DNA of 32,552 nt from Hwanghaeella sp. (lineage in GTDB: Bacteria; Pseudomonadota; Alphaproteobacteria; UBA8366; Aestuariispiraceae), in contig JANQIT010000048.1 in the NCBI GenBank assembly GCA_028282025.1, positions 1 through 32,552 of the forward strand, written 5' to 3'. The notes under the pieces were generated by a model that saw only the letters and a list, made by a program, of their open reading frames with translations, was not told the origin of the DNA and did not search any database. A program made the position numbers and the translations under genes. Below are positions 192 to 26,485 of the stretch, piece after piece. Within the stretch, counting starts at the first letter, position 1, and the number at the start of each line of letters is the position of its first letter.

Positions 192-477
192 GGCGATAGG
201 GGGGCAGGGTTGGCAAGGCGGGTCACAGATGAGTCTTATGGTTTAGCACCAAGGTAGCGCGTATTAGTCGCATCTATTAGGATAATACTCCTAGTACTTT
301 TACTTTTTCTTAAGAAACACCTAGGATTACAATAAACGGCTTTTGGAGAATTTTACCCAGGCTTGCTGTCGGCTTGGATTCTTTGGGGTTGTCGTTTCCA
401 AAGGCGACGTCTTGTTTGGGTACATATGTGGAAATCGTTGGTGTTGGGGGCGTTTTTAGGATCGCGAGGAGGCATTG
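192..477. other. AT-rich upstream region of the sensor kinase
   Basis: No credible gene lies here; the short ORFs on both strands look like chance frames. Bases 240-340 are clearly AT-richer than the surroundings and contain two symmetric elements: TAGGA-N6-TCCTA at 278-293 and the perfect 12-bp palindrome TTTCTTAAGAAA at 306-317. A TACAAT at 328-333 could be a -10 box, but no good -35 accompanies it. An AGGAGG ribosome-binding site at 467-472 closes the region and points to the TTG at 478 as the kinase start. The palindromes are operator candidates only. Confidence 0.4.
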
Positions 478-3400
478 TTGCTCTATCCAGCAGGAATTGC
501 ACGGATAGTATCGTTTGGGAATGTGTCTGTAACGAATGCGCTGGCTCAACTTACGGGGGTGGTTTTATGTTCGATCCTGGCCATCCTGTGTTGTTCCAAG
601 TCTGTTCTTGCTGAACCGTTCTTGATTTCAGAGGCGGATCGGGCCTGGTCGGCTACGGCACCGCCTGTCCGGGTCGGCATAGACCCGAATTATGCGCCCT
701 ACAGCTATATTGACCGGTCCGGAGCGTTCCGCGGTCTTTCCATCGACATTTTCAACGAGATTTCCCGGATTACCGGGTTGAAGTTCGAAATGGTACCGGG
801 GCTGACCTGGCCGGAGATTGTAACGGCAGCGCAGCAACGCTCCATCGATGTGGTGGCGACGATGGTCCAAACGGACGATCGTCTCCAGTATATGAACTTT
901 ACCGATATCTATATAGCGACGCCCCTCGCGGTGATGGGCCGTAAGGGCGACAATCGGATACTGAGCCAGAACGATCTTAATGGGCGTGTCGTCGCTCTTG
1001 TCGAACAGTATTCCTCCATGGAAAAGGTCCTGGCGGAAAACAGCGCGATTATTCCGAAGTTTGTTTCATCGCCCAGTGAAGGTCTAAAGGCCGTCGCATC
1101 TTCCGAAGCCGACGCCTATGTCGGGGTTCTGGGTGTCAGTACGCATCTTGCGCGGCAATTGGGGTTGGCGAACTTGCGCGTCTCCGCACGATATCCCGAC
1201 CCCGGAGCCGGACAGAGAATAGCGTCCCGCACGGACATGCCGGAACTCGGCCGCATTCTCCAAAGCGCCTTGAACGCCCTCGACCCTGTTTTTCTGTCAA
1301 ATGTATTTGAGAAATGGGTTCCTGTTTTCCGCGATCCCTTTTTGGAGCAACAGGTCATTCCGTTCGAGCTGACGGCCCTCGAGAAAGAGTGGCTTGCGGA
1401 GCAAGAAGAGATTTCCATTGGAACCATGAACGACTGGCCGCCCATGGATTTCGTCGATAATGACGGAAACCCGCGCGGCATAGGCGCCGACTTTATTCGC
1501 GCCCTGAACCGCCGGTTGGGCGGTAAGCTGAAGATAATCCCCGGACAATGGACTGAAATCTATGAGGACGCCCGCGAAGGCCGGTTAAATGCGATTGCCG
1601 GCATAACCCCGACTGAGGAGAGGGCGCAGCTTTTCGATTTTACATCCCCCTATGTCGTCATTCCGCATACGATCTTTGCCCATGAAGATGCGCCGTACAT
1701 CGCGGACGTTACCCAGCTGAAAGATAAAAGGATTGCGATAGAGCGTGGTTTCTTCATTGCCGATGCGCTTAGAACCAAGGGACTGGGGATCGAGGTCCTG
1801 GAATTGGAAAACACACGCGCCGCACTCGATACTTTAATTCGTGGGGAAGCCGACGCCTATGTCGGGAACAGAGCTGTTGCAATCCACACAATGCAGGAAG
1901 AACTCATTACGGGGCTTGTGGCGCACAGCAATTTCGACGAAACGAAGTCGACCAACGCCTTTGCGTCTGCGAAAGGCAGCGGGCCATTGGTCGCCATTCT
2001 TGAAAAAGCGCTGAACAGCCTGACGCTTCGTGAGCGTCGACTTATTTTCAGGGAGTGGGTCGCACCGGATACATTCGATGGAACGCCGTTCGTCCTGACG
2101 CCGACTGAAAAGGAATGGCTGGCGGAACATCCTGTGATCCGTGTCGCCGCGGATAGAGCGTGGCAACCGATTGAATTCGTGGGAACGCAAGGCGTCTTCG
2201 AAGGCGTCGCCATAGATATGCTCGACGTTTTGGAGAAGATGCTCGATGTCCGTTTCGAGTTCGACTACACGGCGTCTTGGGATGAAGCCGTGGAGAAAGT
2301 GAAGGTCCGCGAGTTGGACATGTTCTCCGCCGTAGCCATTACACCTTCCAGGCAGGAGTTTGTCGATTTCACCGCTCCATATGCGTCGCTGCCCACGGTC
2401 ATTTTTTCCCGCCGCTCCGATCCGGTCGGTCCGACAATCGAAGAACTGTCCAAAAAACGCGTTGCCGCGGTGCGTGGATATGCGGTTACGGAGTTCTTGA
2501 AAAATTCGCAACTGGACCTTGAGATCGTCAAGGTGGATGACGTTACGCAAGGTTTAAGACTTTTGTCTTCAAAACAGGTCGACGCCTATATCGGCAGCAT
2601 ACTTGTCACAGGGTATGTAATCCGAGAGTCCGGGCTTACCAATATCGTTGTATCCGGGCAGACGCCCTACGGGATAAATGTGTCGATGGCGGTACGCAAC
2701 GACTGGCCGGTTTTCACGAAGATCCTCCGACGCGCGCTTGCTCAGGTTTCAGATCAGCAACGCTCGGAAGTCCTGGCGCGCTGGCTCAGCACGGAATTCA
2801 AGGAGCCACCGAATTATCAACGCCTGTTGATGATCAGCGCAGCCATGACCGTCCTGTTCTTTCTTGCGGGCGTTTGGATTTGGATTCTTCGAAAGCGCGC
2901 CGTGTTCTTGGCCGAAGATTTACGGGAAACCAACCATGAGTTGAGGCGCGAGATGCAGGAAAGGATCGCCGCTGAAAACACAGCCTCTGTCGCCAGCAAG
3001 GCGAAATCCGAGTTTCTTGCAAATATCTCCCACGAATTCCGAACTCCCCTGAATGCGATTGTCGGGTACATTGAATTGATCCGGTGGCGATTGAGAACGA
3101 AAGAGCGCGATGAGAAACTTCAAAGTTACACGGAAAATCTGAATACAGCATCTGTGCAGTTGAAATCGCTGGTGGATGAGACACTCGACCTTGTGGTCAT
3201 TGAAGAAGAGTCCTTTACCCTCAACGAGACACGGTTTGCGGTTTCAACCCTGTTTTCCGAGGTCAAATCGCTTGTCGATCCGGCTGCGCAAAGCCGGGCC
3301 ATCACCATCGCCTGGCAAGAAGCTTCCGATATCGACCTGGTTGCCGACTGTGACCGGCTGCGCCAGGTCCTTATCAATATTGTGGATAACGCGATCAAAT

Positions 3401-3687
3401 ACAGCCACGAAGGCGGCCGTATCGCTGTTTCGGTCGATACAAGGCGATCAGGATCGCTTTCAATCCTCGTTGAGGATTCCGGCATCGGGATGAACCAAGC
3501 GACGCTTGATCGCGTTCTCCGTCCGTTTACCAGGGGGGACGACCCCTTTATCCGGTCTTCGAAAGGCGTTGGCTTGGGATTGGCGATCTGTGAGCGGCTT
3601 GTCCGGTTGCATGGAGGGCAGCTCAAGATCGAAAGTACCGACGGTCAGGGCACGCGGGTTATCATTACCCTGCCAAGGACAGAATAA
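478..3687 (+). CDS. Membrane sensor histidine kinase with three periplasmic solute-binding domains
   Basis: A two-component sensor predicted to bind small solutes in the periplasm and autophosphorylate in the cytoplasm. Residue numbers count from the alternative TTG at 475. A signal-peptide-like hydrophobic stretch ends near residue 46. Three tandem SBP_bac_3-type domains follow at about 65-290, 312-530 and 553-775. One transmembrane helix sits at about 785-804, then a short charged linker. HisKA carries the phospho-acceptor His853 in SHEFRTPLN, and HATPase_c shows the N box around Asn972, DSGIG at 1001-1005 and GVGLGLAI at 1031-1038. The protein ends there, with no receiver or HPt domain, and no response regulator is adjacent. 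The start chosen is TTG 478 because AGGAGG (467-472) is then 5 bases away; TTG 475 would leave only 2. The fold assignment is firm; the ligand is unknown. Confidence 0.9.
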   Translation: MLYPAGIARIVSFGNVSVTNALAQLTGVVLCSILAILCCSKSVLAEPFLISEADRAWSATAPPVRVGIDPNYAPYSYIDRSGAFRGLSIDIFNEISRITGLKFEMVPGLTWPEIVTAAQQRSIDVVATMVQTDDRLQYMNFTDIYIATPLAVMGRKGDNRILSQNDLNGRVVALVEQYSSMEKVLAENSAIIPKFVSSPSEGLKAVASSEADAYVGVLGVSTHLARQLGLANLRVSARYPDPGAGQRIASRTDMPELGRILQSALNALDPVFLSNVFEKWVPVFRDPFLEQQVIPFELTALEKEWLAEQEEISIGTMNDWPPMDFVDNDGNPRGIGADFIRALNRRLGGKLKIIPGQWTEIYEDAREGRLNAIAGITPTEERAQLFDFTSPYVVIPHTIFAHEDAPYIADVTQLKDKRIAIERGFFIADALRTKGLGIEVLELENTRAALDTLIRGEADAYVGNRAVAIHTMQEELITGLVAHSNFDETKSTNAFASAKGSGPLVAILEKALNSLTLRERRLIFREWVAPDTFDGTPFVLTPTEKEWLAEHPVIRVAADRAWQPIEFVGTQGVFEGVAIDMLDVLEKMLDVRFEFDYTASWDEAVEKVKVRELDMFSAVAITPSRQEFVDFTAPYASLPTVIFSRRSDPVGPTIEELSKKRVAAVRGYAVTEFLKNSQLDLEIVKVDDVTQGLRLLSSKQVDAYIGSILVTGYVIRESGLTNIVVSGQTPYGINVSMAVRNDWPVFTKILRRALAQVSDQQRSEVLARWLSTEFKEPPNYQRLLMISAAMTVLFFLAGVWIWILRKRAVFLAEDLRETNHELRREMQERIAAENTASVASKAKSEFLANISHEFRTPLNAIVGYIELIRWRLRTKERDEKLQSYTENLNTASVQLKSLVDETLDLVVIEEESFTLNETRFAVSTLFSEVKSLVDPAAQSRAITIAWQEASDIDLVADCDRLRQVLINIVDNAIKYSHEGGRIAVSVDTRRSGSLSILVEDSGIGMNQATLDRVLRPFTRGDDPFIRSSKGVGLGLAICERLVRLHGGQLKIESTDGQGTRVIITLPRTE

Positions 3688-4852: not shown

Positions 4853-6766
4853 TCAATCGAAGCCTGCAAGAAGCTGTCCGAGGCCGAGCGCGATGTCTGG
4901 AATGTAGGTGGTGAGCATAAGGGCGACAATGAGTGCACAGAGCAGTGGCGTCATCGCCTTGAAGGTTTCGTGAGCCGGGGTTCTTGATACTGCGCCAGTG
5001 ATGAAGACGAGCATCCCGACAGGCGGCGTCAATCCGCCCAGCATCAGGTTCATGACAATCACGATCCCGAAATGAACCGGATCTACGCCCAGTTCGACCA
5101 TCACCGGCATCAAAAGCGGGGTCAGGATCAGGACCGCTGCGCCGATATCCATGAACATTCCAAAGAACAGCATCAGAATATTGGCGATCAGCAGAACCAC
5201 CCATGGTTCCTGTGAAATCCGAGCGGCCAGCTCGATTACCGTTTGAGGGACCTGCTCGGTCGCCAGGATAAAGGTAAAGGGGGCGGCGGCTCCGATCAGC
5301 AGGCCAACCATGGCGGCGTCGACGGCCGCCGCCCTCAGCGTCTGCCATAATGTGACGCCGTCATAGGCGCGGTAGACGGCGAGCCCCAGGAAACCGGTAT
5401 AGACCACCGCCAGCACGCCGGCTTCCGTCGGGGTCACCACGCCGAACCGGATGCCGCCGATGATCAGAACGGCAAGCAGGAGTACCGGAAGGGCGCCGAC
5501 AAAGGCGCGCCATCGTTCGGCGCCGGTCGCGCGGGCGACCGCCGCACCGTACCCGTGACGCCGCGAAACCGCATAGATGCACAGCATCAGGCAGAGTCCC
5601 ATGAGAATCCCCGGCATGACGCCCGCAAGCCACAGGCTGCCGACCGATTGGTTGGAGACTGCTGCCAGGATCAGCAGGGCGACCGACGGCGGGATCACGT
5701 TGGGCAAGGTCGCGGACGCCGCGGTGACCGCGCAGGAAAAACCCGCCGTGTAACCGCGCTTCACCATCTGCGTCACCAGCAATTTCGCGCCAAGCGCTGC
5801 TTCCGAATAGCTTGAGCCGGAAATCCCGGCATAAAGACCGCTGGACAGCACATTGACTTGCGCGAAGCCGCCGCGGAAATGCCCCACCAGCGCGAAGGCG
5901 AAGTTCATAAGCCGGCTTGTCAGACCGCCGGCGTTCATCAGTGCGCCGGCGGCGATGAAAAGAGGAATAGCCAGAAGAAGAAACTTGCTCGACCCGTTCA
6001 CCATGTTCTGAACGACCGCCGCGGGCGGCAGGACGCCCCCGGCCTCGTTCGCCATGAAGGCGGAAAAGACCATCGCAAAGGCGACAGGCGTTCCAATCGC
6101 CATGGCGGCGATGAAACACAAGGCCATGATCCAACCGGGATCGAAGCCCCGCAAAGAGATCAAGGCCCCGTCGTTGAAGGCCCAATAGAGTGCGAAGGCG
6201 GCCAGTACCGCCAGCGGTGCGCGCCAGGGGGCGCGGTCTTCCTCGAAACCGCGGACCGCGAGATATGTCAGCCCCAGGATGCAACTTACCGGGATCGTCG
6301 CGAACTTGACCCAGACAGGTAGGTTCAGGACGTGGTTGGTGCCTCCCACGGCCTGAATCAGGAACGTGCCGCCGAAAAGGAGCATCACCGTACTCAGCGC
6401 CACGACGAGTTCGGCGACGAAGTGCGTAACCTCCTTCACGGGCCTTGGCAGCGGGTCCACCAGGAAAGAGATCGACATATGCATCCGGGAGCGGTGCGCC
6501 AGCGGAATGGCCAGAAAAATGACACAGATGAACAGCCACTGCGCCGCTTCCGAGGCCCAGGTCAGCGAGCTGTTAAATCCATAGCGCCCGATGACGTTGG
6601 CGAAGACGACCGCGATCAGCGCCAAGAGGGCGAGGGCGGCGATCCCGCCGACAATCTCGTCCATCCAACCGAGCGCCCGCTTCACCGCACGTTGAACGCC
6701 GGCGGCACGTCCGACGCCCTTCAAACGCGATGCGTCCGTGCGCCCGGATGTCGATGGATCATCCAC
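4853..6766 (-). CDS. TRAP transporter fused permease, DctQ-DctM type
   Basis: Inner-membrane component of a TRAP importer in which the small (DctQ, about residues 30-180) and large (DctM, about 205-637) subunits are one 637-residue chain. The N-terminal part has four hydrophobic segments with the DctQ-like NVIGRYGFNSSLTWASE region and AHRSRMHM. The C-terminal part has many membrane helices and DctM-family motifs such as SGSSYSEAALG, IPPSV and TPTEAG. Fused permeases are known in this family. Translation appears to start at GTG 6766; no strong ribosome-binding site is visible. The binding-protein gene follows in the same direction, so the two genes form a complete transporter. It is probably driven by a sodium gradient, as in characterised TRAP systems. 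Confidence 0.92.
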   Translation of the reverse strand: MDDPSTSGRTDASRLKGVGRAAGVQRAVKRALGWMDEIVGGIAALALLALIAVVFANVIGRYGFNSSLTWASEAAQWLFICVIFLAIPLAHRSRMHMSISFLVDPLPRPVKEVTHFVAELVVALSTVMLLFGGTFLIQAVGGTNHVLNLPVWVKFATIPVSCILGLTYLAVRGFEEDRAPWRAPLAVLAAFALYWAFNDGALISLRGFDPGWIMALCFIAAMAIGTPVAFAMVFSAFMANEAGGVLPPAAVVQNMVNGSSKFLLLAIPLFIAAGALMNAGGLTSRLMNFAFALVGHFRGGFAQVNVLSSGLYAGISGSSYSEAALGAKLLVTQMVKRGYTAGFSCAVTAASATLPNVIPPSVALLILAAVSNQSVGSLWLAGVMPGILMGLCLMLCIYAVSRRHGYGAAVARATGAERWRAFVGALPVLLLAVLIIGGIRFGVVTPTEAGVLAVVYTGFLGLAVYRAYDGVTLWQTLRAAAVDAAMVGLLIGAAAPFTFILATEQVPQTVIELAARISQEPWVVLLIANILMLFFGMFMDIGAAVLILTPLLMPVMVELGVDPVHFGIVIVMNLMLGGLTPPVGMLVFITGAVSRTPAHETFKAMTPLLCALIVALMLTTYIPDIALGLGQLLAGFD

Positions 6767-7090
6767 GGTCTCTCACCACTCCCTGTCCTCGGCTTCTTGC
6801 GGTGCACAGCAGCACGGAGGTTGGGTGTTGCGGGGTTAGCGGCCGACGGCAGTGCCATGGCTCTTTCCTGGATTCGCCGCTGATCGGACGCATCCGTCAA
6901 GCGTCCTTCTGTCAGGGGGACGGCTTTCCGATCAATTGTTCTGGATAATGGATAAGCGCGCCTGATGTCTACGAGACAGTTGACGCATTCCAGCTTCGCT
7001 GGTCAGTCGAAAATCTAACCAGGTTTGCGTTAACTCCTAACCTCTGAAACGCTCTCACCGTTCTGCCCGCTGAGAAGGCGGTGCGCCGCG
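6767..7090. other. Divergent intergenic region between TRAP operon and nucleotidyltransferase
   Basis: The 324 bases hold no convincing gene: the small plus-strand ORF at 6730-6948 overlaps the permease start and looks spurious. The region must carry promoters for both directions. TTGACG occurs on the plus strand at about 6980-6985 without a clear -10 partner. CCAGC-TTC-GCTGG forms a small perfect hairpin near 6990-7002. Nothing here is strong enough to call a specific promoter. Confidence 0.5.
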
Positions 7091-7957
7091 ATGTGGCCGG
7101 AAATGAAGACCGCCATTGACGTTGCTTCCGAAACACAATTCAAATGCAGTGCGAAGGTCGACTGCTGCAGTGCCGTTCATGGAGCCGAAATTCTGACGGA
7201 GCCCCGTATTCTATGCATTTCTCAAGCCCGGATGTCCTCTACGAGACTGCCGGGGAAGGTCATGGAACCGTTGGCCGGGCGGCCTTTGCTGCAATTTCAC
7301 CTGGAACGCCTTCAGAAGTGCCGTTTGATCGATACGCTTGTCGTCGCCACAACCCAGGAGAATGAAGACGACCGGATCGTCGAACTGTGCGATACTCTGG
7401 GCGTCGCGTCTTTCCGCGGTTCGCGTGACGATGTTCTCGGACGTTTCAGCGAGTGCCACGATCGGTTCGGTGGCGATGTCATCGTTCGCGTAACGTCTGA
7501 CTGTCCTTTGATCGACCCCGTTCTGAGCGACACAGTCATCGAATGGTTTTTGACAGGACCGGAGCAGCCGGATCTCGCCAATCTGGACTTAAGCCGGTTT
7601 CCGCGCGGCCTGGATACGGAGGTTTTCCGTTCAGAGGATCTGAAAACGGCGGCATCCTCCGCGACGGACCCTTTCGCGCGTGAACATGTCACCACGTATC
7701 TCTATTCCGATCCCGAAAGATACAAAGTCGCTCTTTTTACCAGCCCGATCTCCGCACCCTATCGTTGGTGTGTGGATGAGGCTGCGGACCTCGCCCTTGT
7801 CCGGGGAATCGTAGAGGGGGTGGGGAATGCCGAAATGGACTTCTCCTGGTTGGATTGTCTACGCTTTGTTGAAGCGAACCCAGCCCTGGCCGATATTAAC
7901 CGGCATGTGTCTCAAAAAACGGCTGGGGTAAAGACGCCTCGTACTGTGCCGACGTGA
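7091..7957 (+). CDS. SpsF-like cytidylyltransferase-family nucleotidyltransferase
   Basis: Belongs to the GT-A-fold nucleotidyltransferase family of SpsF (spore coat polysaccharide), related to CMP-KDO and CMP-nonulosonate synthetases. The nucleotide-binding signature QARMSSTRLPGKVM is at residues 45-58, and the metal/substrate-binding acidic motif VTSDCPLIDP lies around 134-143. The family usually begins a few residues before the QAR motif, so this 288-residue protein carries about 38 extra N-terminal residues. Only ATG 7091 and ATG 7103 are available in frame, so the extension may be real, or the true start may be a rarer codon. The gene is monocistronic here and converges on the epimerase gene. 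Activating a sugar for the glycan island is a reasonable role; the sugar is unknown. Confidence 0.82.
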   Translation: MWPEMKTAIDVASETQFKCSAKVDCCSAVHGAEILTEPRILCISQARMSSTRLPGKVMEPLAGRPLLQFHLERLQKCRLIDTLVVATTQENEDDRIVELCDTLGVASFRGSRDDVLGRFSECHDRFGGDVIVRVTSDCPLIDPVLSDTVIEWFLTGPEQPDLANLDLSRFPRGLDTEVFRSEDLKTAASSATDPFAREHVTTYLYSDPERYKVALFTSPISAPYRWCVDEAADLALVRGIVEGVGNAEMDFSWLDCLRFVEANPALADINRHVSQKTAGVKTPRTVPT

Positions 7958-14590: not shown

Positions 14591-14634
14591 CTTGATCATG
14601 GCCCGATCCGATGCGGCTCAGCGGGAAATTAAGT

Positions 14635-16014
14635 ATGTCCTTAGGTAAGCGGATATTCTCGGCCCCAACTTCGACCAACCTGGAGATTACGGAAGCGTGC
14701 AACGTCAAGTGCACGCACTGCTATAACTTTTGGCGGGAAGACAGTATGGGGGGCAACTCCCTGAATATCGAGACCCTGGATAAGGTGATCGACAAGCTTA
14801 TCGAAACGCAGGTGTTCCATGTAATTCTCTCCGGTGGGGAGCCTTTCGCTAAGTTCAAGATTCTGAAGCACGCCCTTAAGCGACTGGGAGAAGCCGGTAT
14901 GTCGCTAAGCGTGAATACGAATCTGATGCTTGCGAATGACGACAAATGCAAAGAACTGTACGACCTGGGGCTGGATCACGTCCTAACGAGTTTGCCGTCC
15001 AGCGATCCGGTTCTGAACGACCGGATCATGCAAAGCGTGGGGTCGTTCGAATCTATAATGCAGGGGATCGACGCTTGCCGCAGAAACGGGATACGCGTCA
15101 GCGTCAACCACGTGATCAACAACACCAACTATGACGGTGTGTACGAAGCGGCAAAACTGGTCGCCGGTAAAGGTGCACAGAAAATCTTCATCACGCGGGC
15201 CGTACCGCCCACATACTCCAAGAACGCAGAGGCCGACGGCTATCTGATGGAGCCGGAAAAACTGAAGTCCGCCTTGGATGCTGCTCTGCAAGCGAAGGCG
15301 GATTTCGGAATCGGCGTCGGCAGCTTGGTGAGCTACCCCCTGTGCTTCTTGGGCGACTTGGTAAAGTACAAAGACTTCATCGGGCGCGGTTGCCCTGCTC
15401 AACGGGGAAGCCGTTTCAGCATAAATTCAACCGGTGACGTGCACGCCTGCGTCCACGAAGAAAGAAGCTACGGGAACGTTTTCGAACAGGACATCCCGGA
15501 ACTTTACGACAATATGATGCCCTGGCATGACGGCAGCTATCGGTATAGCGGTTGTGCGGGATGCCGATATGCGGATGTTTGCGAATCCGGCTGCAGGATG
15601 TCCGCGCTCGGAGCGTATGGGGAGCTTTCCTCCAAAGACCCGCTCTATGTCGGCCCGCACGCCTTTACGCGCGACTACGAGCTTGACCCGGACAACACGG
15701 TCGCAAGTCTTTTGACCGAAGACACGCAGCTTTACGCTCCCAAAAGGCTACGTTTCCGGCAGGAAGATGGCTTTACCCTATTGAACATCCGTTGGGGCAA
15801 TACCATCACCATTTCCGACGAGATCGCTGCAGTCCTGAAGAGACACCAGGAAAGTGGTGCGTCGTTCACCTCAAAGAGTTTTGAGGCGAAGGACTTCGAT
15901 TTACTGGTCGGGTTGATTGTGAAGGACGCCGTCACGTCGCCGGACCTGAATATCGATCATCTGAAGGAAGATGTGGGTTTGAGCTTGAACCTAGAGTCTC
16001 TATTCATGAAATGA
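14635..16014 (+). CDS. Radical SAM protein with SPASM-like C-terminal cysteine cluster (copy 1)
   Basis: A radical S-adenosylmethionine enzyme. The 4Fe-4S-binding CNVKCTHC sits at residues 22-29 (Cys22, Cys26, Cys29), followed by the SAM-binding ILSGGEPF. The C-terminal half has a cysteine series typical of SPASM/twitch auxiliary clusters: GRGCPAQ, VHACVHEE, SGCAGC and VCESGC. About 110 residues follow the last cysteines, with no motif recognised. ATG 14635 is preferred, with GGGAA nearby; ATG 14611 in the same frame would add 8 residues. The next gene, 54 bases on, encodes a DapA-superfamily protein, so the two probably act in one pathway. SPASM enzymes modify peptides, sugars or nucleosides; the substrate here is unknown, and a glycan precursor is the guess from context. 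Confidence 0.87.
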   Translation: MSLGKRIFSAPTSTNLEITEACNVKCTHCYNFWREDSMGGNSLNIETLDKVIDKLIETQVFHVILSGGEPFAKFKILKHALKRLGEAGMSLSVNTNLMLANDDKCKELYDLGLDHVLTSLPSSDPVLNDRIMQSVGSFESIMQGIDACRRNGIRVSVNHVINNTNYDGVYEAAKLVAGKGAQKIFITRAVPPTYSKNAEADGYLMEPEKLKSALDAALQAKADFGIGVGSLVSYPLCFLGDLVKYKDFIGRGCPAQRGSRFSINSTGDVHACVHEERSYGNVFEQDIPELYDNMMPWHDGSYRYSGCAGCRYADVCESGCRMSALGAYGELSSKDPLYVGPHAFTRDYELDPDNTVASLLTEDTQLYAPKRLRFRQEDGFTLLNIRWGNTITISDEIAAVLKRHQESGASFTSKSFEAKDFDLLVGLIVKDAVTSPDLNIDHLKEDVGLSLNLESLFMK

Positions 16015-16068: not shown

Positions 16069-17028
16069 ATGTTCGATGAGTTGAAGAAGTCCCTGGAAGG
16101 GTGCGTCTACACGATTTTCACACCTTTCGACGCCGATTTGAATATCGACTACGAAGTGCTGGAACGGTATCTGGCGCACCTTTACGGCACGGGTGCCCGG
16201 AAGTTCTACGCCATGGCCTATAATTCCAGGTATTCCCAGTTGACCGACCGGGAAATAATGGACCTGAACGAGTTTTGTATCAGGACGCTAAAGAAGTTCG
16301 ATTCCGCGAATGTGGTCATTGTAGGCGATCCCATCCATTGTTCGACCGCGATCAGTGTGGAATTCGCCCGTCACGCCAGAGAAGCGGGGGCGGATCTTAT
16401 TTCACTGCTGGTTCGAGAGAAGTACTTCTCGGACGATCAGGTTCTCGATCATTTCGCCGAGGTCGGGCGTCTTTCCCGGTGTCCGATTCTTGTCCATGAA
16501 ATGCCCTTCCTGAGCGGCGCGGACGGGTCGCAGATTCACTGGCCGGAAAGTCTGCTGAACGCCCTGCCGACAGTGCCGGAGATCGTCGCCCTGAAGGAGG
16601 ATGCCAAGGATTTTGAGGTAACCTGCGCGGCGCTGGAATTGGAGCCGCGGATTAGAGTGGTGATTTCCGGTGGTGGGAAGGAGCGGTTTGTTCAGTTCAA
16701 GAAGTTTGGCGCAAGGTCCTATTTGAACGGAATTTCTATGCTCGACGCCAGAATTGGAGAGATATTCTGGAAAGCGTTCGAAAAGGACGATCATAAGACA
16801 ATCTCCTTTATCATCGAGGATATAGAGAAACCGTTCTTCGATTTTCCGGCGCAGAAGCACGGCTGGCACCGCACTAACAAGGCACTGCTTCAGGCGGCGG
16901 GGCTTATGCATCGGCGCGACCGCATGCCCTTAAAACACCTGTCGGATGAAGAATTTGCCGATGTGGAACAGGCATATCTGAAGATGAAGCCCGCTGTCGA
17001 GAAACTGATTGACGCGAATGTGGACTGA
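16069..17028 (+). CDS. DapA/NanA-superfamily protein with altered active site
   Basis: A 319-residue class I aldolase-fold protein of the dihydrodipicolinate synthase/N-acetylneuraminate lyase superfamily. The N-terminal VYTIFTPFDADLNIDYEVL matches the family opening, and Lys176 in VALKEDAKD aligns with the Schiff-base lysine. Two other hallmarks are changed. The catalytic Tyr of the usual YNxP motif aligns with His143 in HEMP (143-146), and the carboxylate-binding GTTGE loop is replaced by YNSRY around 51-55. The enzyme therefore probably does not use pyruvate in the ordinary way. It follows the radical SAM gene in a likely two-gene operon and converges on the NeuB-like gene. It could be a lyase, dehydratase or isomerase on a sugar-acid-like substrate; annotation as DapA itself would be misleading. 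Confidence 0.85.
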   Translation: MFDELKKSLEGCVYTIFTPFDADLNIDYEVLERYLAHLYGTGARKFYAMAYNSRYSQLTDREIMDLNEFCIRTLKKFDSANVVIVGDPIHCSTAISVEFARHAREAGADLISLLVREKYFSDDQVLDHFAEVGRLSRCPILVHEMPFLSGADGSQIHWPESLLNALPTVPEIVALKEDAKDFEVTCAALELEPRIRVVISGGGKERFVQFKKFGARSYLNGISMLDARIGEIFWKAFEKDDHKTISFIIEDIEKPFFDFPAQKHGWHRTNKALLQAAGLMHRRDRMPLKHLSDEEFADVEQAYLKMKPAVEKLIDANVD

Positions 17029-17057: not shown

Positions 17058-19310
17058 TTACCATTCTGCATCCTCCAGGACGGCCAGGGCCTCCCAGAAT
17101 CCTTCTCCGTTGTTTTTATGGCCCTGCCAGATTTCCGGGATCATGCTGGCGTCCGAACATAGCCGGTCCAACTTTTTCCGCAGATAAACAATATCCAAGT
17201 CGCCGTCTCCGAGCTGAAGTCCTTCTCCGTCCACGCCTCTAGCGTCGGCAATGTGTATGTGTGCGGCGTAGCCGCCGCATTCATCGAGAAAATCGTCAAA
17301 AGACCACTTATATGTATTGCAGGCGAGTTTCGAATGGGAGACATCGAGGCAGATGCGAAGATCGTTCTCCTCGCAAATCTTCCGGATCTGGCTGCTATCG
17401 ACAAAGAGGTTGTGATATCGCTGTCCGCCAAAATGCCATGGATACGGCGGCATCGTCTGGGGAAGCAGCTCGACGCCCTCCCGGTCGAGGGTTGCAAGCG
17501 ACCCCGCCAAAATGTCATAGCGTTCAAGAACCTGACTTTGCGTCAAAGCACCGTCTTCCGAGTGGCCGCCGACATTAACAACGATAGCAGGTCTATCGGT
17601 ACTTGGGAAAAAGGGTTGCATACGGCGTGTCAGGTCGATGACCTGTTGCAGATGGTCGATAGATTTAGAGCGATAGTCGTACTCCAACGCAGCGAGATCC
17701 AGAATATGGTCGCCCTGAAACAGCTCAGGAGCATGGACCAGCAATCCTTGGGAAAGCGGTTGCTCAAAGTGATCCGTTACCGACTCTTCTATATCCTTGT
17801 ACGACAGGTGAAATTCTAGAAACGATGGGTTGGTGTCCGCGATCAGGTGTTTGTAGTCATGGAATCGGACCGGTATTCCCCAGCGTCGTTTGATCCGATA
17901 GGGGCGGGGAGAAGAGACTCCTTTATCGGAGATGTCCGACTCGAAGAAGAACTCACCCCGATCAAGGTCGCGTTTGGCCTTCCGCCCCAGCAATTGTTCC
18001 ATGTAGGATGGTTGCAACCCCTTTCCCGGCGACTTTATGAGGATCATGTCCTTGGTGATGGATTCTCCTGCTCTGATAGGGCGGCTGGCAACAATGGATT
18101 TGGCAAGAACTTCCCGGTTCAGTAATTCGCCCTGTGTGACGACCCGCTCTTGAGCCGCGCCCATCGAAGCCTCTACCGCGCGAATGCCCGCGACCATGTC
18201 CTTGAATTCAGAAGGTAGCAGGGATACGCGATGGTCGTTCCCCTCTTGCGTCTTGTCGAGGGTAATGTGCTTTTCGATAATCTTTGCGCCGCGGGCAACC
18301 GCTGCTATCGGGACTGCATACCCTCTCTCATGGCCCGAGTAGCCGACGACCGTATCGGACATGTCGCGCAAGTGGTCCATGTACCTTAGGTTCACGTCTT
18401 TGTACGGCGTCGGATAGGTGGAGCAACAGTGCAACAGTGCGTAACAAGCGTGGCTTTGCTGTAAGATGCTGATGGTTGACTGTATTTCTTCCTCGTTGGA
18501 CATCCCTGTCGATAGGATGAAGGGTTTCGAGGTGGCTATCACGCCCCGCAGTAACTGATGGTTTGTCAAATCGGCGGAAGCAATTTTGTATCCGCTAAGA
18601 CCGTAACCTTCGAGTGCATTCAACGCGGTCAGATCCCACGGAGTGCACAGCGGTTCGATACCCTGCGCTCGGCAATAGTCGAAGGCCCGGAACATGTCGT
18701 CTTTGGACAGGCTGTACTTCCGTAGCAAATCCAGAACATATTGCGCGCCCAGGTCTTCGCTAAGATCGCTTTTGTTCGGGCCGTCAACAAATAGGCCATC
18801 CAGGTCCCGCATTTGAAACTTTGCGCAGTCCGCGCCCGCGGCGACGGCCTCGTCAACCAGTCGTTTTGCAATCCCCAGGTCGCCTTGATGATTGTTCCCA
18901 ATTTCGGCCACGACGAAGGCGGAAGAGGATTTTGAAACGACGTGATTGCCGAATTTCAACTCGTGGGGTTTGTCGATAGCGACAGCAATAAGACGATGGT
19001 TTTCGTCAACAAGTGGGATTTCATGGATACGGGCGGTGAATAACGACATGATCGCTGTTCGGCTGTCACCGAAATCGGCATAGACATAGTCGGTGTTCAC
19101 CAGCGTGCTGATCGGGACCGAGAAACCTTGCTCGCTGTTGCGGACAATCCATCGCCGCAGGTCGCCGCCGGTTACGACGCCACGCAGTACATTCCCCTGT
19201 GACACGCAGAACATTGTTCGGGCCGAGTTTTTTTCCGCACGCGCTAAGGCCGATAGGATTGTATCGTCTTCATGGACGATGAAAGCCGATATGGCGCGGT
19301 CGATGAACAT
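17058..19310 (-). CDS. Four-domain nonulosonate synthase: CBS pair, NeuB, SAF, sugar-isomerase-like TIM barrel
   Basis: A 750-residue protein whose core condenses phosphoenolpyruvate with an N-acyl hexosamine-type sugar to make a nonulosonic acid (sialic, legionaminic or pseudaminic type). Residues 1-120 form a CBS-domain pair with HEIPLVDENHRLIAV. The NeuB barrel spans about 125-385 and includes VAEIGNNHQGD, KFQMRD, KIASADLTN, ILSTGMS, GYSGHE (His327), EKHITLD (His348) and DHRVSL (359-364). A SAF/antifreeze-like domain covers about 400-462. Residues 470-750 resemble xylose-isomerase-like/AP-endonuclease-2 barrels, with LDVSHS, HIHIADARG, GLQLGDGDLD and PEIWQG as likely metal-binding strands. 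NeuB-SAF alone is normally about 340-350 residues. It follows the GT-B-like gene with a 71-base gap. The exact product and the function of the flanking domains are unproven. Confidence 0.9.
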   Translation of the reverse strand: MFIDRAISAFIVHEDDTILSALARAEKNSARTMFCVSQGNVLRGVVTGGDLRRWIVRNSEQGFSVPISTLVNTDYVYADFGDSRTAIMSLFTARIHEIPLVDENHRLIAVAIDKPHELKFGNHVVSKSSSAFVVAEIGNNHQGDLGIAKRLVDEAVAAGADCAKFQMRDLDGLFVDGPNKSDLSEDLGAQYVLDLLRKYSLSKDDMFRAFDYCRAQGIEPLCTPWDLTALNALEGYGLSGYKIASADLTNHQLLRGVIATSKPFILSTGMSNEEEIQSTISILQQSHACYALLHCCSTYPTPYKDVNLRYMDHLRDMSDTVVGYSGHERGYAVPIAAVARGAKIIEKHITLDKTQEGNDHRVSLLPSEFKDMVAGIRAVEASMGAAQERVVTQGELLNREVLAKSIVASRPIRAGESITKDMILIKSPGKGLQPSYMEQLLGRKAKRDLDRGEFFFESDISDKGVSSPRPYRIKRRWGIPVRFHDYKHLIADTNPSFLEFHLSYKDIEESVTDHFEQPLSQGLLVHAPELFQGDHILDLAALEYDYRSKSIDHLQQVIDLTRRMQPFFPSTDRPAIVVNVGGHSEDGALTQSQVLERYDILAGSLATLDREGVELLPQTMPPYPWHFGGQRYHNLFVDSSQIRKICEENDLRICLDVSHSKLACNTYKWSFDDFLDECGGYAAHIHIADARGVDGEGLQLGDGDLDIVYLRKKLDRLCSDASMIPEIWQGHKNNGEGFWEALAVLEDAEW

Positions 19311-19381: not shown

Positions 19382-21115
19382 CTAATCGTCTTCCTGTGTG
19401 CTACAGCAAATCTCTCTCAGTGTCTCAGGATACTTGTCCGCGTTGCACCGCAGATCGTTCCGGTACCCGGTTTCCGGAGCGCGTTTCCATAAAGACGCCA
19501 GGGCTTCGACAATCTTTTCACTGTCGGGCACATAGAGTGCCCGCCCAGAGTCGATAAGGTCCCTATCGTTATCCAGCGCGTACCGATGCGTGAACAGGGT
19601 GGGGACGCCGACCGCGCATGCTTCATGAGCGACGGTTGAGTACTGCGTGACATGCACGTCCGTATTCATCAATAGATCGAACAAATGCGCCTGAACGGGG
19701 GTTTGGAGCTCAACATTATCTAGTGGAAGGGCCGACAACTGTTTTCGAATCTCGTCGACGATCTCTTGCGGCATGGCGGGATGAGTTCGGAAGACCCAGT
19801 ACGCGCCGCGGATGAAATCCTGCTGCGGACCTTCCCGGTTCACGGTGGATCGTATCGCATCGACGAGATTGTCCGGCAGGGGTTTCAGATCTTTTACCGG
19901 GAAGGGCCATTGTAGTGTGAACAGTATCCTCGCTCTCTCATGGCCGGTTTTGGGTTCCGTGGGGGGGAGGGTCCTGGACCGCAGGTGTTTTTTCCAGAAC
20001 CAAAGCCACGGATTGCCCGCCACAATCGGCCGGTGCCTCAGATTACCGAAGACCGGGCCGTGGCCATTGTTCACCTGCGTGCTGAAATACTTGTCCCAGA
20101 CCAGAAAGAAGTCGGGAACCATGGGGAAACCGGACGCAGGCGTACTGGGCCAATCTTTATAGAAGGCGTGCTGCAAACCGATCTTGCCGTGCTGAATGTC
20201 GGCGGACCGGACGCCGGCAAGGTGAGCGCCAAAAACCGTGCAGATCTCATCGCCGCCATAAAACGCGCTCAACACAAACAACTTCACATGAAGAGCTTTT
20301 AGAAGTTCGGCGAAGCCGCGCGCCAGGTAGAATTTCCTTTGAAGTGTAAGCAGCACTTGTTTTCTGCCGCCGATGGAAAATCCGCATATCCGCTCGACAA
20401 CATCATGGAAGGTCTGGAGGTTTTCGAAGTCTTCGATTTCGCCGTCGATGCCGACTTGGTCATCCAGGATGTCTTGTAGAAGGAACGAACGGATCATCTC
20501 CGCCGTGCTGACGGCAGCGGCAGGGAGGAAACACTCCCTTGCCGGATCCGGTGTTTCGAATGTGATTTTCCCGGATGTCAGCCCCACTTCGCCGGCGGCG
20601 ATGCAGGTTGAATCAATCAAACGGTTAAAGTGTTTCGACGCGACAAGCTGTTGCAGTTGCTTGTTTTGGTGATAGGCGAGGACGTCAACCGCCCCTAATT
20701 GCTGATAAACGCGATCGATCTGCGCCCGATGGCGCTCTTTGTCTTCCTGACAAAGGGTCTCCAGTATCTTCCGTTTCTCCCCTTGTGAACCCGCCTCGCG
20801 CAGGCGTGCTTCGATGTCTGACAGCATGTCCGTCAGATACATCGCAGGAACGCCCCCGTTCAGTTGGGTGACAATCATCAGGCGGAGCATCGGCCAGACT
20901 GGAACGTCCCTGAACTTGAGAGTTTCTGTATCGAATGTCGCTTCGATCTGCTGGATCAGCCGGTGGTGTTCGGTAAAGGAAATCGGGGCGTCCTCATTCT
21001 TGGGGCCAAGAACGTCTCGTCTTTCGCAAATGCTATCCGGGCGAGACCAAGTATCGCGCAAATGAAGGGCCGGTAGACGACTTTGCGGATGTTGACAATT
21101 TTTCTTTGATACCAA
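19382..21115 (-). CDS. Surface-carbohydrate biosynthesis protein, probable GT-B-like glycosyltransferase
   Basis: About 577 residues, no signal peptide and no membrane helices. The second half has features seen in GT-B-like capsule and surface-carbohydrate enzymes. ADIQHGKIG lies near residue 308, resembling the QHG motif of surface carbohydrate biosynthesis proteins. Near residue 490, VTQYSTVAHEACAVGVPTLF resembles the donor-binding segment of glycosyltransferases and CDP-glycerol-type transferases. The first half has no recognised motif. The only standard in-frame start near the front is TTG 21115. It overlaps a good -35 box for the opposite strand, so the true start may lie further in, and the first 20-35 residues should be treated as doubtful. 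It is upstream of the NeuB gene in the same direction, so it is a candidate nonulosonate transferase. Confidence 0.62.
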   Translation of the reverse strand: MVSKKNCQHPQSRLPALHLRDTWSRPDSICERRDVLGPKNEDAPISFTEHHRLIQQIEATFDTETLKFRDVPVWPMLRLMIVTQLNGGVPAMYLTDMLSDIEARLREAGSQGEKRKILETLCQEDKERHRAQIDRVYQQLGAVDVLAYHQNKQLQQLVASKHFNRLIDSTCIAAGEVGLTSGKITFETPDPARECFLPAAAVSTAEMIRSFLLQDILDDQVGIDGEIEDFENLQTFHDVVERICGFSIGGRKQVLLTLQRKFYLARGFAELLKALHVKLFVLSAFYGGDEICTVFGAHLAGVRSADIQHGKIGLQHAFYKDWPSTPASGFPMVPDFFLVWDKYFSTQVNNGHGPVFGNLRHRPIVAGNPWLWFWKKHLRSRTLPPTEPKTGHERARILFTLQWPFPVKDLKPLPDNLVDAIRSTVNREGPQQDFIRGAYWVFRTHPAMPQEIVDEIRKQLSALPLDNVELQTPVQAHLFDLLMNTDVHVTQYSTVAHEACAVGVPTLFTHRYALDNDRDLIDSGRALYVPDSEKIVEALASLWKRAPETGYRNDLRCNADKYPETLREICCSTQEDD

Positions 21116-21122: not shown

Positions 21123-21180
21123 TAAGCGTTAACAAGTTGAAATATTGCTAGAAAATCGTGGTTTTGGAGAAGGGTCGGAC

Positions 21181-21927
21181 ATGTCTGTTATCGCGTTTGT
21201 GCCCGCTAGATCCGGTTCTAAGAGACTGGCCGGCAAGAACGTTCGCGTCTTGAATGGGAAGCCCCTGATGGTTTGGACACTAGAAGCTTGCCTGCGGGCC
21301 AAACAGGTAGACAAAGTCGTCCTTTCCACCGATTCCGAAGAGTATTTGGAGATCGCCGAGAAGGCCTTTCCAGGCGAAGTCATCCTGAGAGATTTGCGAA
21401 CGATGGGGGAGGCGGGTGACGCGGTTAAGATTTTCGACTATGTCAAAAACAAATGGGCAAAGATTTTTACGCCCCACTTGCAGCATGACAGTTCGCATGC
21501 CGGCCAGGCTGGGCCGGAAGACGCCTTTGTTCTGGCCCTTCCAACAGCGCCGTTGAGAACGGCAGAGCATGTCGATGCGTGTATCGACCTTTTCCGTAGT
21601 TCTGGCCGCGCCGTTTTTTCGGCGACGGAGCTCCCTTTTCCTGTCAATTTCAGCTTCTACCTGGATAACGAAGGCGACTGGTATCCCGTGTTGGGGGACC
21701 GGTCACCGATGGTAACCGGAAATACGCGCAGTCAGGATCAACGAAAGGCCTATCGCCCCAATGGCGCGGTGTATGTACGAAAGATCGTGGATCTTGAGGA
21801 TGACGCACTGACGACATTTTACGACGACGCCTTACCCTACATTATGGATAAAAGTGTTTCTGTGGACATAGATGACGCAAAAGACTTCCAATTGGCGGAG
21901 TTCCTGATGAACGCCGCTAGAAACTGA
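21181..21927 (+). CDS. neuA: CMP-nonulosonate (acylneuraminate) cytidylyltransferase
   Basis: Activates a nonulosonic acid with CTP to the CMP-sugar used by transferases. Numbered from ATG 21181, the 248-residue protein opens with FVPARSGSKRLAGKNV, the NeuA/LegF/PseF nucleotide-binding signature. It then has LSTDSEEYLEIAE, LPTAPLRTAEHVD, and a late RPNGAVYVRK followed by VDIDDAKDFQLAE with the metal-binding aspartates. The longer frame from 21145 would add 12 residues; ATG 21181 is chosen because AGAAGGG sits about 7 bases before it. It heads a plus-strand run with a methyltransferase, a radical SAM protein and the Maf-like transferase, which places it in a protein-glycosylation pathway. Sequence alone does not show whether it prefers sialic, legionaminic or pseudaminic acid, so the symbol is a family label. 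Confidence 0.9.
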   Translation: MSVIAFVPARSGSKRLAGKNVRVLNGKPLMVWTLEACLRAKQVDKVVLSTDSEEYLEIAEKAFPGEVILRDLRTMGEAGDAVKIFDYVKNKWAKIFTPHLQHDSSHAGQAGPEDAFVLALPTAPLRTAEHVDACIDLFRSSGRAVFSATELPFPVNFSFYLDNEGDWYPVLGDRSPMVTGNTRSQDQRKAYRPNGAVYVRKIVDLEDDALTTFYDDALPYIMDKSVSVDIDDAKDFQLAEFLMNAARN

Positions 21928-22717: not shown

Positions 22718-22792
22718 CGTTGAAGGCTGACGGCGCTGCGCAGGGCCAATGCACTGGTTGAATTTGAAGAAAGTGTATTTCGAGTTTTGATC

Positions 22793-24088
22793 ATGCCCCT
22801 TGGAAACGAATCCGTAACGGACAAATTCGCAGATATATACGATCATGCGGGCTCTTTGAGTTTACGCAGGATTCTTCGTATTATCGACGGTGTCCAAAGG
22901 GATGAAATCGACGCGCACTTCGCGGGCGATCCTTGGGCGCGAAATCTGGTCCTGAATTTGTGGGAGTACCACAACAAGGTATCGGAGGTTGAGAGTTATC
23001 CGTGGAACATCGCCTTTCCTATTGCCGATCTGTGCAACGCCCGTTGCACCTTCTGCACCTCGTGGGTGGAGGGGAAAGCCTTCTTTACGCTGGATGACGC
23101 CCGGCACTATGAAGAGCTTCTACCCTATGCGCGGACTTTCGGATATCAGGGTCATGGCGAGCCCCTTGCGAACCCGAAGATCATTGAACTGATCCGGTAT
23201 TTCGGCGAACGGCTTGATCCGCGTTGCGTCACCTACACCATCACCAATGGAGTGTATCTTGAGAAATGCATGGATGTGTTTCAGGAGACCGGCTTGAACA
23301 ACGCCGCTGTCAGCCTGAACGCGACCACATCGGAGATTCATGACAAGGTTATGGGGTTGGGTCCGACTGCATTCGAGAAGATCATAAAAACGCTGAAAAC
23401 GCTCTCTAAGGAGGGGCAAACGGACTTTTCCATCTCCATGGTCTTGACCGCCGATAACTTTCATCAGGCGGCGGATTTTGTGAAACTGGGTAACGATCTA
23501 GGGGCGACGACCGTCTATCTGCGCACGCTCGCACCCGCATCCGTGCCGCCGAAGTACCTGAACTACCATCTGCTATCCCCGATTTTTCTACCTGATTTTG
23601 CGAAACACAAAGATCGGGCGCTGCAGGCTATAGAGGCTTCCCGGGTGCCGGTGGAAGCCGCGCCTGAAACGTGGGACAAGGACAATCTGCCGGAGAAAAT
23701 CAGAAAGGAAGTGACCGAAAATCCACCGGCATTTGTCGAGAGAAGGGATGTGCTTCGGAACAAGGAGTATAGGAAGAGGCCGGTGCTTTCCGGCGACGGT
23801 CGTTTTCAATCCTATGTCGACGATTTGAACGAAAATATCTATGGGCGCGAGGCGCCGTTTTCCTGCGGTTTCATTTACCACAATATGATTTCGACCAGGA
23901 CCGATTATGAAGTCATTCCCTGCTGTTACATGCGCACTGTACCGGGGCATGAGCGCGTCGTGCTCGGCAAGGAGCGTCCGTTCCATCAGTATTGGAACAG
24001 TGACGCCTTTGTGGCGTTGCGCACCCGCCTTCGTGAGGGGCCGTTGTTTCAGGCGTGCGCCAGATGTCCCAATCAGGGATGCATCTGA
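22793..24088 (+). CDS. Radical SAM protein with SPASM-like C-terminal cysteines (copy 2)
   Basis: A 431-residue radical SAM enzyme. About 70 N-terminal residues precede the barrel. CNARCTFC (Cys81, Cys85, Cys88) binds the 4Fe-4S cluster, and GHGEPLANP replaces the usual GGEP SAM-binding motif. The C-terminus carries FSCGFIYH, VIPCCYM and the terminal CARCPNQGC, which fits a SPASM/twitch cluster domain. It is not a close copy of the radical SAM protein at 14635. ATG 22793 is chosen over TTG 22787. Its stop is 15 bases before the Maf-like gene, so the two are almost surely co-transcribed. The substrate is unknown; a flagellar glycan or its precursor is suggested by context. Confidence 0.86.
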   Translation: MPLGNESVTDKFADIYDHAGSLSLRRILRIIDGVQRDEIDAHFAGDPWARNLVLNLWEYHNKVSEVESYPWNIAFPIADLCNARCTFCTSWVEGKAFFTLDDARHYEELLPYARTFGYQGHGEPLANPKIIELIRYFGERLDPRCVTYTITNGVYLEKCMDVFQETGLNNAAVSLNATTSEIHDKVMGLGPTAFEKIIKTLKTLSKEGQTDFSISMVLTADNFHQAADFVKLGNDLGATTVYLRTLAPASVPPKYLNYHLLSPIFLPDFAKHKDRALQAIEASRVPVEAAPETWDKDNLPEKIRKEVTENPPAFVERRDVLRNKEYRKRPVLSGDGRFQSYVDDLNENIYGREAPFSCGFIYHNMISTRTDYEVIPCCYMRTVPGHERVVLGKERPFHQYWNSDAFVALRTRLREGPLFQACARCPNQGCI

Positions 24089-24103: not shown

Positions 24104-26485
24104 GTGAGCACCAATCCGGCCTTGTTCAAGAGGAATCTGAATGCGCTCAAACCATGGTTCAGCAAACAGCTGGCGGCTGAGATCGATCAATCCTCCGCAT
24201 TCGATCTTGAAGTCATTCGCAACGCGGAAACTCATGAGTTCGAGAATATCGGCCTAGGGGAGGGAGTTTTCTATCCGGAACCTGCCGATACCCATGCGCT
24301 GAAACAGGTGCTGGCATTTAGTGAATCGCCGAATGCCGTCGATTTTTCGGACGCCATACAGCAGCAGGTCCATGACCAGTATTTGTGGGATCAGAATACC
24401 GAAGGGCAGTTTGCTTCGAGTTTGCTGGCGCGGTTGGAAGGAAATCCGAAGCCGGGGCCTGTGAATGCCGACTATACACCCGGTTTTTTCATTTCCTTCG
24501 GTCTCGGCGCCGGTTGCCACATTGAGCATGTCGTCAGTCGGTTTGACTTCAAAGACCTGATCGTTTGCGAGGGGTATTTGGATTTTCTCCTCCTCTCGAT
24601 GCATGTCGTCGACTGGGTGACGATTGTCGATAAAGTGACGGCAAGGGGAGGGCGGCTCCACTTCATCTTGAACACCAGCGCGACAGCGGTTCTTAGAGAA
24701 TTAAACCTTGTCATTCAGAAGTCCCACATCGGTCTCATAGAAGGCAGTTTTCTTTTTCAGCACCACAATTTTTCACCTGTTGACGAGGTTGTGGCGTCGC
24801 TGCCGGAACTTCTGCGGCAAGTAATCCAGTACAATGGGTGGCTGGAGGATGAGATAACCCACGCCCGCAACATTGCGGCGAACAGGAAGTATAACGGAAC
24901 CTCTTCGTTACTGAATGCCGCGACAAAATTACGGCTGGAAAACCCGGTTCTAATCGTGGGAAGTGGTCCGTCTCTCGAAAGGGATCTGCCCCGCCTGAAG
25001 GAGAGGCAAGACCGTTTCATCGTGGTTAGTTGCGGGTCGGCGCTTCAGGCTTTGATGGAGGCCGGCATTACCCCGGATTTCCATTGCGAGATGGAGAATG
25101 CGCTCAGCGTGGGGTTCATTGTCGGTCGAACGGCCAAGAAATTCGACCTACGGCCTATCACCCTTCTGGCATCCTGCACTGTCGTGCCGGTCTTGGCTCA
25201 GTACTTCAACAACACGATATTTTTCCCGCGTGAAGGGAATAGTTTCTCTTCCATACTGTATGAAGACCAGGTCGGATTTTCTGGACGCACGGCGACGATT
25301 TCCGCTTTGTCCATCTTCATGGGGTTGGGCGCGCAGCACATCTTCCTGATGGGAGTTGACTTCGCGCTCGGGCCGGAAAAAGAAACGCACTGCAAAAATA
25401 CCGTCTATGAAACGGACAGCCTGAAGTTCGGCCAGGGATCCGGCGCTAATCGGGAATATGTTGCGGTGAAAGGAACCTGTCGCGAGACGGTGCTAACCAA
25501 TACCACATGGAGCTATATGCGGTATGGCATGGAGATGGCTGTTCTGCACTTCCGGGCGAATGGATCCTCCAGCCAAGTTTGGAATGTCAGCGATGGCGCC
25601 GCCATAGAAAACATTCCCTATCTTTCCCTGGACGAAGTTCTGGTTCAGTCGAAATCTTTACCCGACAAGAGCAGCGCCGCCAAATCGGGGGACAGACTTT
25701 TCAACCTGTTCCAAACCAACCGGATGGGAAAGCAAGATAGAAGCCATGTACTCCCAGACGTTCGCGAGGCGCTCGCCGAGATTACCGAACTGGGCAGAAA
25801 GATGCTCAAGCTTGTCGAAAGCACCGATGACAGCCGACTGCAATATGAGTGGTTTTACACTCAGTTCTGCCTCCGGTTCAGTGACGAGGAAATCGCCGGG
25901 AAGTCAAAAAACCATCAAGCGGTGTGGCGATTGTTCCATCCGATCATCTTGCGGGCTTTTCACTATATCAACCACCGTCTGAGGCGTATGGACAAACCAT
26001 CGCAGCAAATTTGGACGGCGAAATATGTCGAGGAGTTCTTTTCGTTTTTCGATGCCATTCTGTGCCGCTTCCATGCCGAGATGGCCGGTTTGACGTTGGA
26101 TCTTGGGGGGGCGGACGACGGGCGGCAAGCCTATGCATCTTTGAAACCCGAAAGCGGTTTGGCGTCGTTCTTCGAGACGGCTTGGCGTGACCCGATTCTT
26201 GCCGTCGGCATGCTGGAGAATCTGAAACTTGATCCTGTTGTTTGGCGCTATGTCGAAATGGTTGTCTATAAGAGGATCTGGCATTATCGGGGTCTCTTCC
26301 TGACCGCGATCGTTGCTGGGTCGGACGATCATCGTCAGATCGGGGAGTATGGGTTGAAGCTGAACGCTCTTAAATTTGCCATCATGGCCTGTTTCGAGTC
26401 GGAGGATCAGTTACCCTTGCCGGAGTTCCCGGCCAGAATCGAAACGGTCATGATTGCTAACAACATCAGGCGTAATAACACCTGA
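24104..26485 (+). CDS. Maf-like motility-associated glycosyltransferase, DUF115/MptE-like
   Basis: A 793-residue cytoplasmic protein. The central DUF115 (6-hydroxymethylpterin pyrophosphokinase MptE-like) domain lies at about 255-430: NPVLIVGSGPSLERDLPRL near 280, DFHCEMEN, and HIFLMGVDFALG near 415. Motility-associated factors of this family transfer nonulosonic acids to flagellin Ser/Thr residues in Campylobacter, Aeromonas and Magnetospirillum. The N- and C-terminal helical arms are of the size usual for large Maf proteins. Translation starts at GTG 24104, preceded by GGGAGAG. It closes the plus-strand run that starts with the CMP-nonulosonate synthetase, a strong contextual match. No flagellin gene is in the window, so the target protein is inferred. 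Confidence 0.88.
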   Translation: MSTNPALFKRNLNALKPWFSKQLAAEIDQSSAFDLEVIRNAETHEFENIGLGEGVFYPEPADTHALKQVLAFSESPNAVDFSDAIQQQVHDQYLWDQNTEGQFASSLLARLEGNPKPGPVNADYTPGFFISFGLGAGCHIEHVVSRFDFKDLIVCEGYLDFLLLSMHVVDWVTIVDKVTARGGRLHFILNTSATAVLRELNLVIQKSHIGLIEGSFLFQHHNFSPVDEVVASLPELLRQVIQYNGWLEDEITHARNIAANRKYNGTSSLLNAATKLRLENPVLIVGSGPSLERDLPRLKERQDRFIVVSCGSALQALMEAGITPDFHCEMENALSVGFIVGRTAKKFDLRPITLLASCTVVPVLAQYFNNTIFFPREGNSFSSILYEDQVGFSGRTATISALSIFMGLGAQHIFLMGVDFALGPEKETHCKNTVYETDSLKFGQGSGANREYVAVKGTCRETVLTNTTWSYMRYGMEMAVLHFRANGSSSQVWNVSDGAAIENIPYLSLDEVLVQSKSLPDKSSAAKSGDRLFNLFQTNRMGKQDRSHVLPDVREALAEITELGRKMLKLVESTDDSRLQYEWFYTQFCLRFSDEEIAGKSKNHQAVWRLFHPIILRAFHYINHRLRRMDKPSQQIWTAKYVEEFFSFFDAILCRFHAEMAGLTLDLGGADDGRQAYASLKPESGLASFFETAWRDPILAVGMLENLKLDPVVWRYVEMVVYKRIWHYRGLFLTAIVAGSDDHRQIGEYGLKLNALKFAIMACFESEDQLPLPEFPARIETVMIANNIRRNNT

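Follow-up and report, generated by a model that had tools for sequence, protein, structure and literature searches.

Gene and domain architecture

The window analyzed here is a stretch of 32,552 nucleotides from Hwanghaeella sp. (contig JANQIT010000048.1). Between positions 17058 and 19310 it carries a gene for a four-domain synthase of 750 amino acids, referred to as P0001. The gene lies on the minus strand, where 750 uninterrupted codons run from an ATG at 19310 to a stop at 17058; the plus strand of the same interval is full of stops. The open frame is supported by full-length relatives at about 50% identity. Pfam recognizes, in this order, a CBS domain (residues 10-56; 26 bits, barely above the 24-bit cutoff), a NeuB domain (residues 151-386; E 7e-80, 268 bits, above cutoff), a SAF domain (residues 404-460; 41 bits) and an AP_endonuc_2 domain (PF01261, residues 523-746; E 8e-16, 59 bits against a cutoff of 31.1). 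The AlphaFold model of the full-length protein has a mean pLDDT of 91.5. The first-pass annotation had described four consecutive domains in one 750-residue frame, and the Pfam order and the confident models show this arrangement to be real, but encoded on the minus strand.

With NeuB above its cutoff and followed by SAF, the domain matches assign P0001 to the NeuB nonulosonate synthase superfamily (PF03102). No dedicated model for the four-domain architecture exists in the protein-family libraries searched, and a literature search by domain words found no paper on the CBS-NeuB-barrel combination. All features of P0001 given below are on the minus strand.

The synthase half and its sugar pocket

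The synthase half comprises a NeuB TIM barrel (residues 128-386, 18153-18929) and a SAF, or antifreeze-like, domain (17931-18101). It shares its fold, its metal histidines and its PEP residues with Neisseria meningitidis NeuB/SiaC (1xuu). The PDB alignment equates His327 (18330-18332) and His348 (18267-18269) with the meningococcal catalytic metal ligands His215 and His236, and the PEP-binding residues Lys164 and Lys242 are likewise aligned and conserved. Both histidines, which had been noted as intact, are invariant in the family alignments.

Compared with the meningococcal enzyme, P0001 has two extra domains and a rebuilt sugar pocket. Of the SAF domain, only Arg314 extends into the active site, where it positions the N-acetyl group of ManNAc (PMC6795526). 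Alignment with 1xuu and its Arg314 variants places Ser427 (18030-18032) at this position, which is occupied by Ser in all 68 aligned fused members and by Arg in 31 of 31 standalone NeuBs taken from the genome of the window and its relatives. Other pocket differences, at conserved positions of the domain, are also fixed; from standalone to fused enzymes they are SDH(T/S) to SGHE, Phe225 to Trp and Arg403 to Ala, and the fused family has Asp247 where standalone NeuBs have Glu. The exchange of Arg314 for Ser, together with the rebuilt pocket, points to an acceptor sugar that lacks a 2-acetamido group, and a non-acetamido acceptor is considered probable for P0001. The best NCBIfam match is NeuB_NnaB (E 4e-96), while P0001 falls below the equivalog cutoffs for Neu5Ac synthase (TIGR03569; 321.9 against 399.65 bits) and for pseudaminate synthase (TIGR03586; 235 against 340.25 bits).

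The C-terminal barrel

The xylose-isomerase-like barrel (residues 471-750, 17061-17900) is defined by Pfam, by its model (pLDDT 95.3 for the barrel alone) and by fold search. Its structural matches include MJ1311 (3wqo; VIA Z 24.6) and L-ketose, D-psicose and D-tagatose 3-epimerases with Z of about 22-24, as well as endonuclease IV and xylose isomerase. The isomerase-like fold claimed for this domain is upheld by structure prediction. P0001 shares with 3wqo and the ketose 3-epimerases the fold (Z 22-25) and the Asp, His and Glu of the metal site, and differs from them in its fusion, in an identity of only about 10-20% and in a Gln at the first Glu position.

The expected metal site is Glu-Asp-His-Glu. 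Its second and third ligands, Asp656 (17343-17345) and His686 (17253-17255), and its fourth, Glu726 (17133-17135), which is also a candidate base, are invariant. The first Glu is replaced by Gln618 (17457-17459) in 89 of 89 alignment rows, and an hhalign comparison with L101 sets this Gln on the Glu of the L101 motif LENI. A loss of metal ligands across homologues had been named as what would refute the first-pass proposal; it is seen only in part, with three ligands kept and the first Glu replaced by an invariant Gln. Further barrel residues, His526, His659, Asp689, Glu696 and His731, are invariant as well. In ketose 3-epimerases the two Glu residues work from opposite faces, the first serving as a base. 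Since Gln618 replaces this first Glu, the barrel is unlikely to be a two-base epimerase; isomerization with one base, or hydrolysis, is more likely, and the chemistry of the barrel may have no counterpart among its relatives.

The N-terminal CBS pair

The CBS pair occupies residues 1-115 (18966-19310) and is supported by Pfam and by matches to the CBS domains of GutQ. A ribose-binding-type motif, Thr47-x-x-Asp50 (19161-19172), is seen in the alignments in the first repeat only, with Gly49 and Asp50 invariant; the second repeat is weak. All 34 homologous N-termini tested match Pfam CBS when scanned alone. Among curated proteins, their nearest relatives are the CBS pairs of arabinose-5-phosphate isomerases, GutQ being matched by 32 of the 34 members and KpsF by 29.

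Among the best PDB matches of the pair is 4o9k, a structure which we take to hold CMP-Kdo. The KpsF/GutQ/KdsD group to which 4o9k belongs has a TDGDxRR-type motif in common with P0001 and acts in a CMP-ulosonate pathway; there the CBS pair is attached to a sugar-phosphate isomerase domain, in P0001 to NeuB. Taken together, the KpsF/GutQ-like pair, the 4o9k match and the single T-x-x-D motif make a CMP-ulosonate sensor the leading guess, and the sensing of a CMP-sugar by this domain is proposed tentatively.

Distribution of the family

Barrel relatives are encoded in 420 contig stretches of a one-genome-per-species data set, the best 80 of which were kept for comparison. Nearly every copy examined among these 80 aligns with P0001 from residue 1 to about residue 746, at about 50% identity. 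Carriers among the same best 80 of 420 are found in Cyanobacteria, alpha-, beta- and gammaproteobacteria, Bacillota, Chloroflexota, Bacteroidota, Lentisphaerota, Kiritimatiellota, Verrucomicrobiota, Myxococcota, Bdellovibrionota, Thermodesulfobacteriota, Campylobacterota and Actinomycetota. By sequence, the four-domain synthases are a distinct, widespread and little-described family present in at least 12 phyla, of which P0001 is a fairly divergent member. The recurrence of the same chain across phyla means that the fusion is not accidental, and an assembly join is ruled out on the same grounds. Closer to the window, close full-length relatives occur in 2 of 98 related genomes in addition to its own. 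A distant DNA search of E. coli genomes gave no relative of the fused synthase, and named phages gave no full-length one.

The CBS pair is missing from a few fused copies (L077, L097-L099, the viral contig L094, and L081, which lies near its contig end), for which the family tree requires two changes. The copy in L094, at 4981-6831, comes from a contig of a viral collection. No standalone copy of a P0001-type barrel was seen among the best 80 of 420, the weak matches being generic AP_endonuc_2 proteins. One plasmid-record row was left out of the alignment used for structure prediction.

Neighboring genes and genome context

A CMP-sugar synthetase gene (21145-21927, plus strand) lies one gene away from the fused gene and divergent from it; it is assigned by Pfam (CTP_transf_3), NCBIfam (PseF-like, below cutoff) and locus clustering. 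Members of its family are found in 60 of 84 related loci, and in 47 of them the synthetase gene directly adjoins the fused gene in the same orientation. Directly upstream of the fused gene, on its strand, is a gene for a 577-amino-acid protein (19382-21115) that has no match in Pfam, NCBIfam or the PDB. Two other loci, L042 and L050, have relatives of it near the fused gene (cluster 38), and it is a candidate sugar transferase that could represent a new type.

Genes for amino-sugar synthesis are depleted around the fused gene. Of 50 long fused loci, 12 have a gene for a DegT aminotransferase or a NeuC-type epimerase within 8 kb; for standalone neuB the figure is 14 of 19 loci (Fisher p 2e-4), in a comparison whose control is alphaproteobacterial only and whose fused set spans many phyla. 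Some of these 12 fused loci also hold a second, standalone neuB. The genome of the window has no match to Epimerase_2, the NeuC-type UDP-GlcNAc 2-epimerase, and its other NeuB genes sit on contigs with DegT aminotransferases. Genes related to mannose metabolism are also encountered: a ManC/ManA-type family occurs in 5 loci, adjoining the fused gene in some, and GDP-mannose-dehydratase-type proteins are among its operon mates.

A probable, experimentally studied relative in Serratia marcescens

The four-domain architecture is not a rare one, and a likely member of the family, the NeuB of S. marcescens, has already been studied experimentally. The NeuB of strain UMH9/gn773 is encoded by a 2241-bp gene beside neuA and carries an extra COG1082 isomerase/epimerase domain that its authors call 'not typically observed' (PMC9000132). 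According to the same source, sialic acid and capsule depend on this protein, the capsule contains KDN at about 20:1 over Neu5Ac, of which a little is also made, and Kdn is uncommon in bacterial capsules (PMC9000132). As described there, the protein resembles P0001 in its length of about 746 amino acids, its NeuB and COG1082-type barrel domains and a CMP-sugar synthetase gene nearby. The likeness is drawn from published length and domains, and membership of the family, a CBS pair and an equivalent of Ser427 are presumed from it; the reported length would leave room at the N-terminus for a CBS pair of about 115 residues. The Serratia gene is described in an enteric capsule locus, whereas P0001 lies in a locus with a Maf-type glycosyltransferase. 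A non-acetamido acceptor had been expected from Ser427 and the missing amino-sugar genes before the Serratia comparison was made.

Proposed function and alternatives

In the model that we favor, the NeuB domain would condense an aldose with PEP at the His327/His348 metal site, by the chemistry of other NeuB enzymes, and the acceptor would be a neutral hexose, most likely mannose, giving Kdn, a sialic acid that has no amino group. The barrel would ready this aldose within the same chain, most likely by metal-dependent aldose-ketose isomerization of a common hexose. P0001 and one CMP-sugar synthetase would then suffice to make CMP-Kdn without an amino-sugar pathway, and the CBS pair, with its one nucleotide-type site, would probably bind the CMP-sugar end product and throttle the synthase. 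The product would go onto a surface glycan, possibly flagellin, which the Maf-type glycosyltransferase in the window makes a possible acceptor. To our knowledge, mannose does not usually occur free as an intermediate; its production in cis by the barrel would explain why the fused enzyme and the synthetase recur together.

A neutral-hexose, Kdn-type synthase with a barrel supplier and a CBS sensor is the best explanation of the whole, with about an even chance of being right. That the product is Kdn itself is slightly favored, and the part of the barrel as in-cis supplier of the acceptor is plausible though short of an even chance. The most specific version, in which one polypeptide leads from a common hexose through mannose to Kdn, is switched off when CMP-Kdn acts on its CBS pair and has reached at least 12 phyla by gene transfer, is rather unlikely in all its parts at once.

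Several alternatives change the role of the barrel. NeuC and LegG/PseG free the acceptor in amino-sugar pathways, and the barrel could do likewise as a hydrolase, acting for instance on mannose 6-phosphate or GDP-mannose to release mannose, with the rest of the model unchanged. Endonuclease IV, a metal hydrolase, is among its close folds, and the ManC/ManA-type and GDP-mannose-dehydratase-type neighbors fit this activity; yet Gln618 and Glu696 deviate from the endonuclease IV ligands and no full trinuclear set could be mapped, which leaves the hydrolase improbable. Equally improbable is a barrel acting after condensation, to isomerize or epimerize the nonulosonate to another nine-carbon acid. 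Its fold suits sugar isomerization, and barrel and synthase always form one chain in the loci examined, but the Serratia locus gives plain KDN, though other members could differ. If the barrel were instead catalytically inactive, serving as scaffold or sensor purely to regulate the synthase, the invariant Gln at the first metal position would be accommodated, but the constraint on the active-site rim (Asp656, His659, His686, Asp689, Glu696, Glu726 and His731 across phyla) exceeds what a mere scaffold would be expected to show, and this role is very improbable.

Another alternative concerns the product, with P0001 as an ordinary synthase of amino-nonulosonates, of the Neu5Ac, legionaminic or pseudaminic type, that bears two accessory domains. 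The NeuB_NnaB match and the small amount of Neu5Ac reported for Serratia are consistent with it, but scores below both equivalog cutoffs, Ser427 with its rebuilt pocket, the scarcity of amino-sugar genes nearby and the absence of Epimerase_2 matches from the genome make it distinctly improbable. Part of the first-pass interpretation is affected in the same way. Its domain assignment holds, whereas the UDP-GlcNAc-, ManNAc- or bacillosamine-type substrates that it suggested are disfavored by the family-wide Ser, by the gene neighborhoods, by the genome content and by the need for the Serratia protein, of the same described make-up, in a Kdn-rich capsule. An in-cis second enzyme combined with a nucleotide-gated regulator is still the most natural reading of the chain.

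If the family makes Kdn, the CBS-NeuB-SAF-barrel arrangement with a Ser at the Arg314 position, beside a CMP-sugar synthetase, becomes a signature predicting this sugar in many groups, among them Cyanobacteria, soil alphaproteobacteria and Bacillota, in which the NeuB domain alone would point to N-acetylneuraminate. The question of where such a pathway obtains its non-phosphorylated mannose could then be put to the test, and in the CBS pair one would have a candidate example of feedback by a CMP-sugar on an enzyme of the NeuB type.

Other genes of the locus

Adjoining the fused gene on its other side is a gene for a protein of the DHDPS/N-acetylneuraminate-lyase superfamily (16069-17028, plus strand), a possible partner in nonulosonate metabolism. 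This family is also present in the fused loci L050, L091 and L094, in the last of these directly after the fused gene. The Maf/MptE-like flagellin glycosyltransferase (Pfam Maf_flag10_N) is encoded at 24104-26485 on the plus strand, and two different radical SAM proteins (14611-16014 and 22787-24088, both plus strand) lie within the glycan locus. A second cytidylyltransferase-like protein, SpsF-like by eye and separate from the synthetase at 21145, is encoded at 7091-7957 (plus strand). Farther away, at 475-3687 on the plus strand, lies the gene for a large membrane histidine kinase in which three tandem solute-binding modules of amino-acid type can be discerned by eye.
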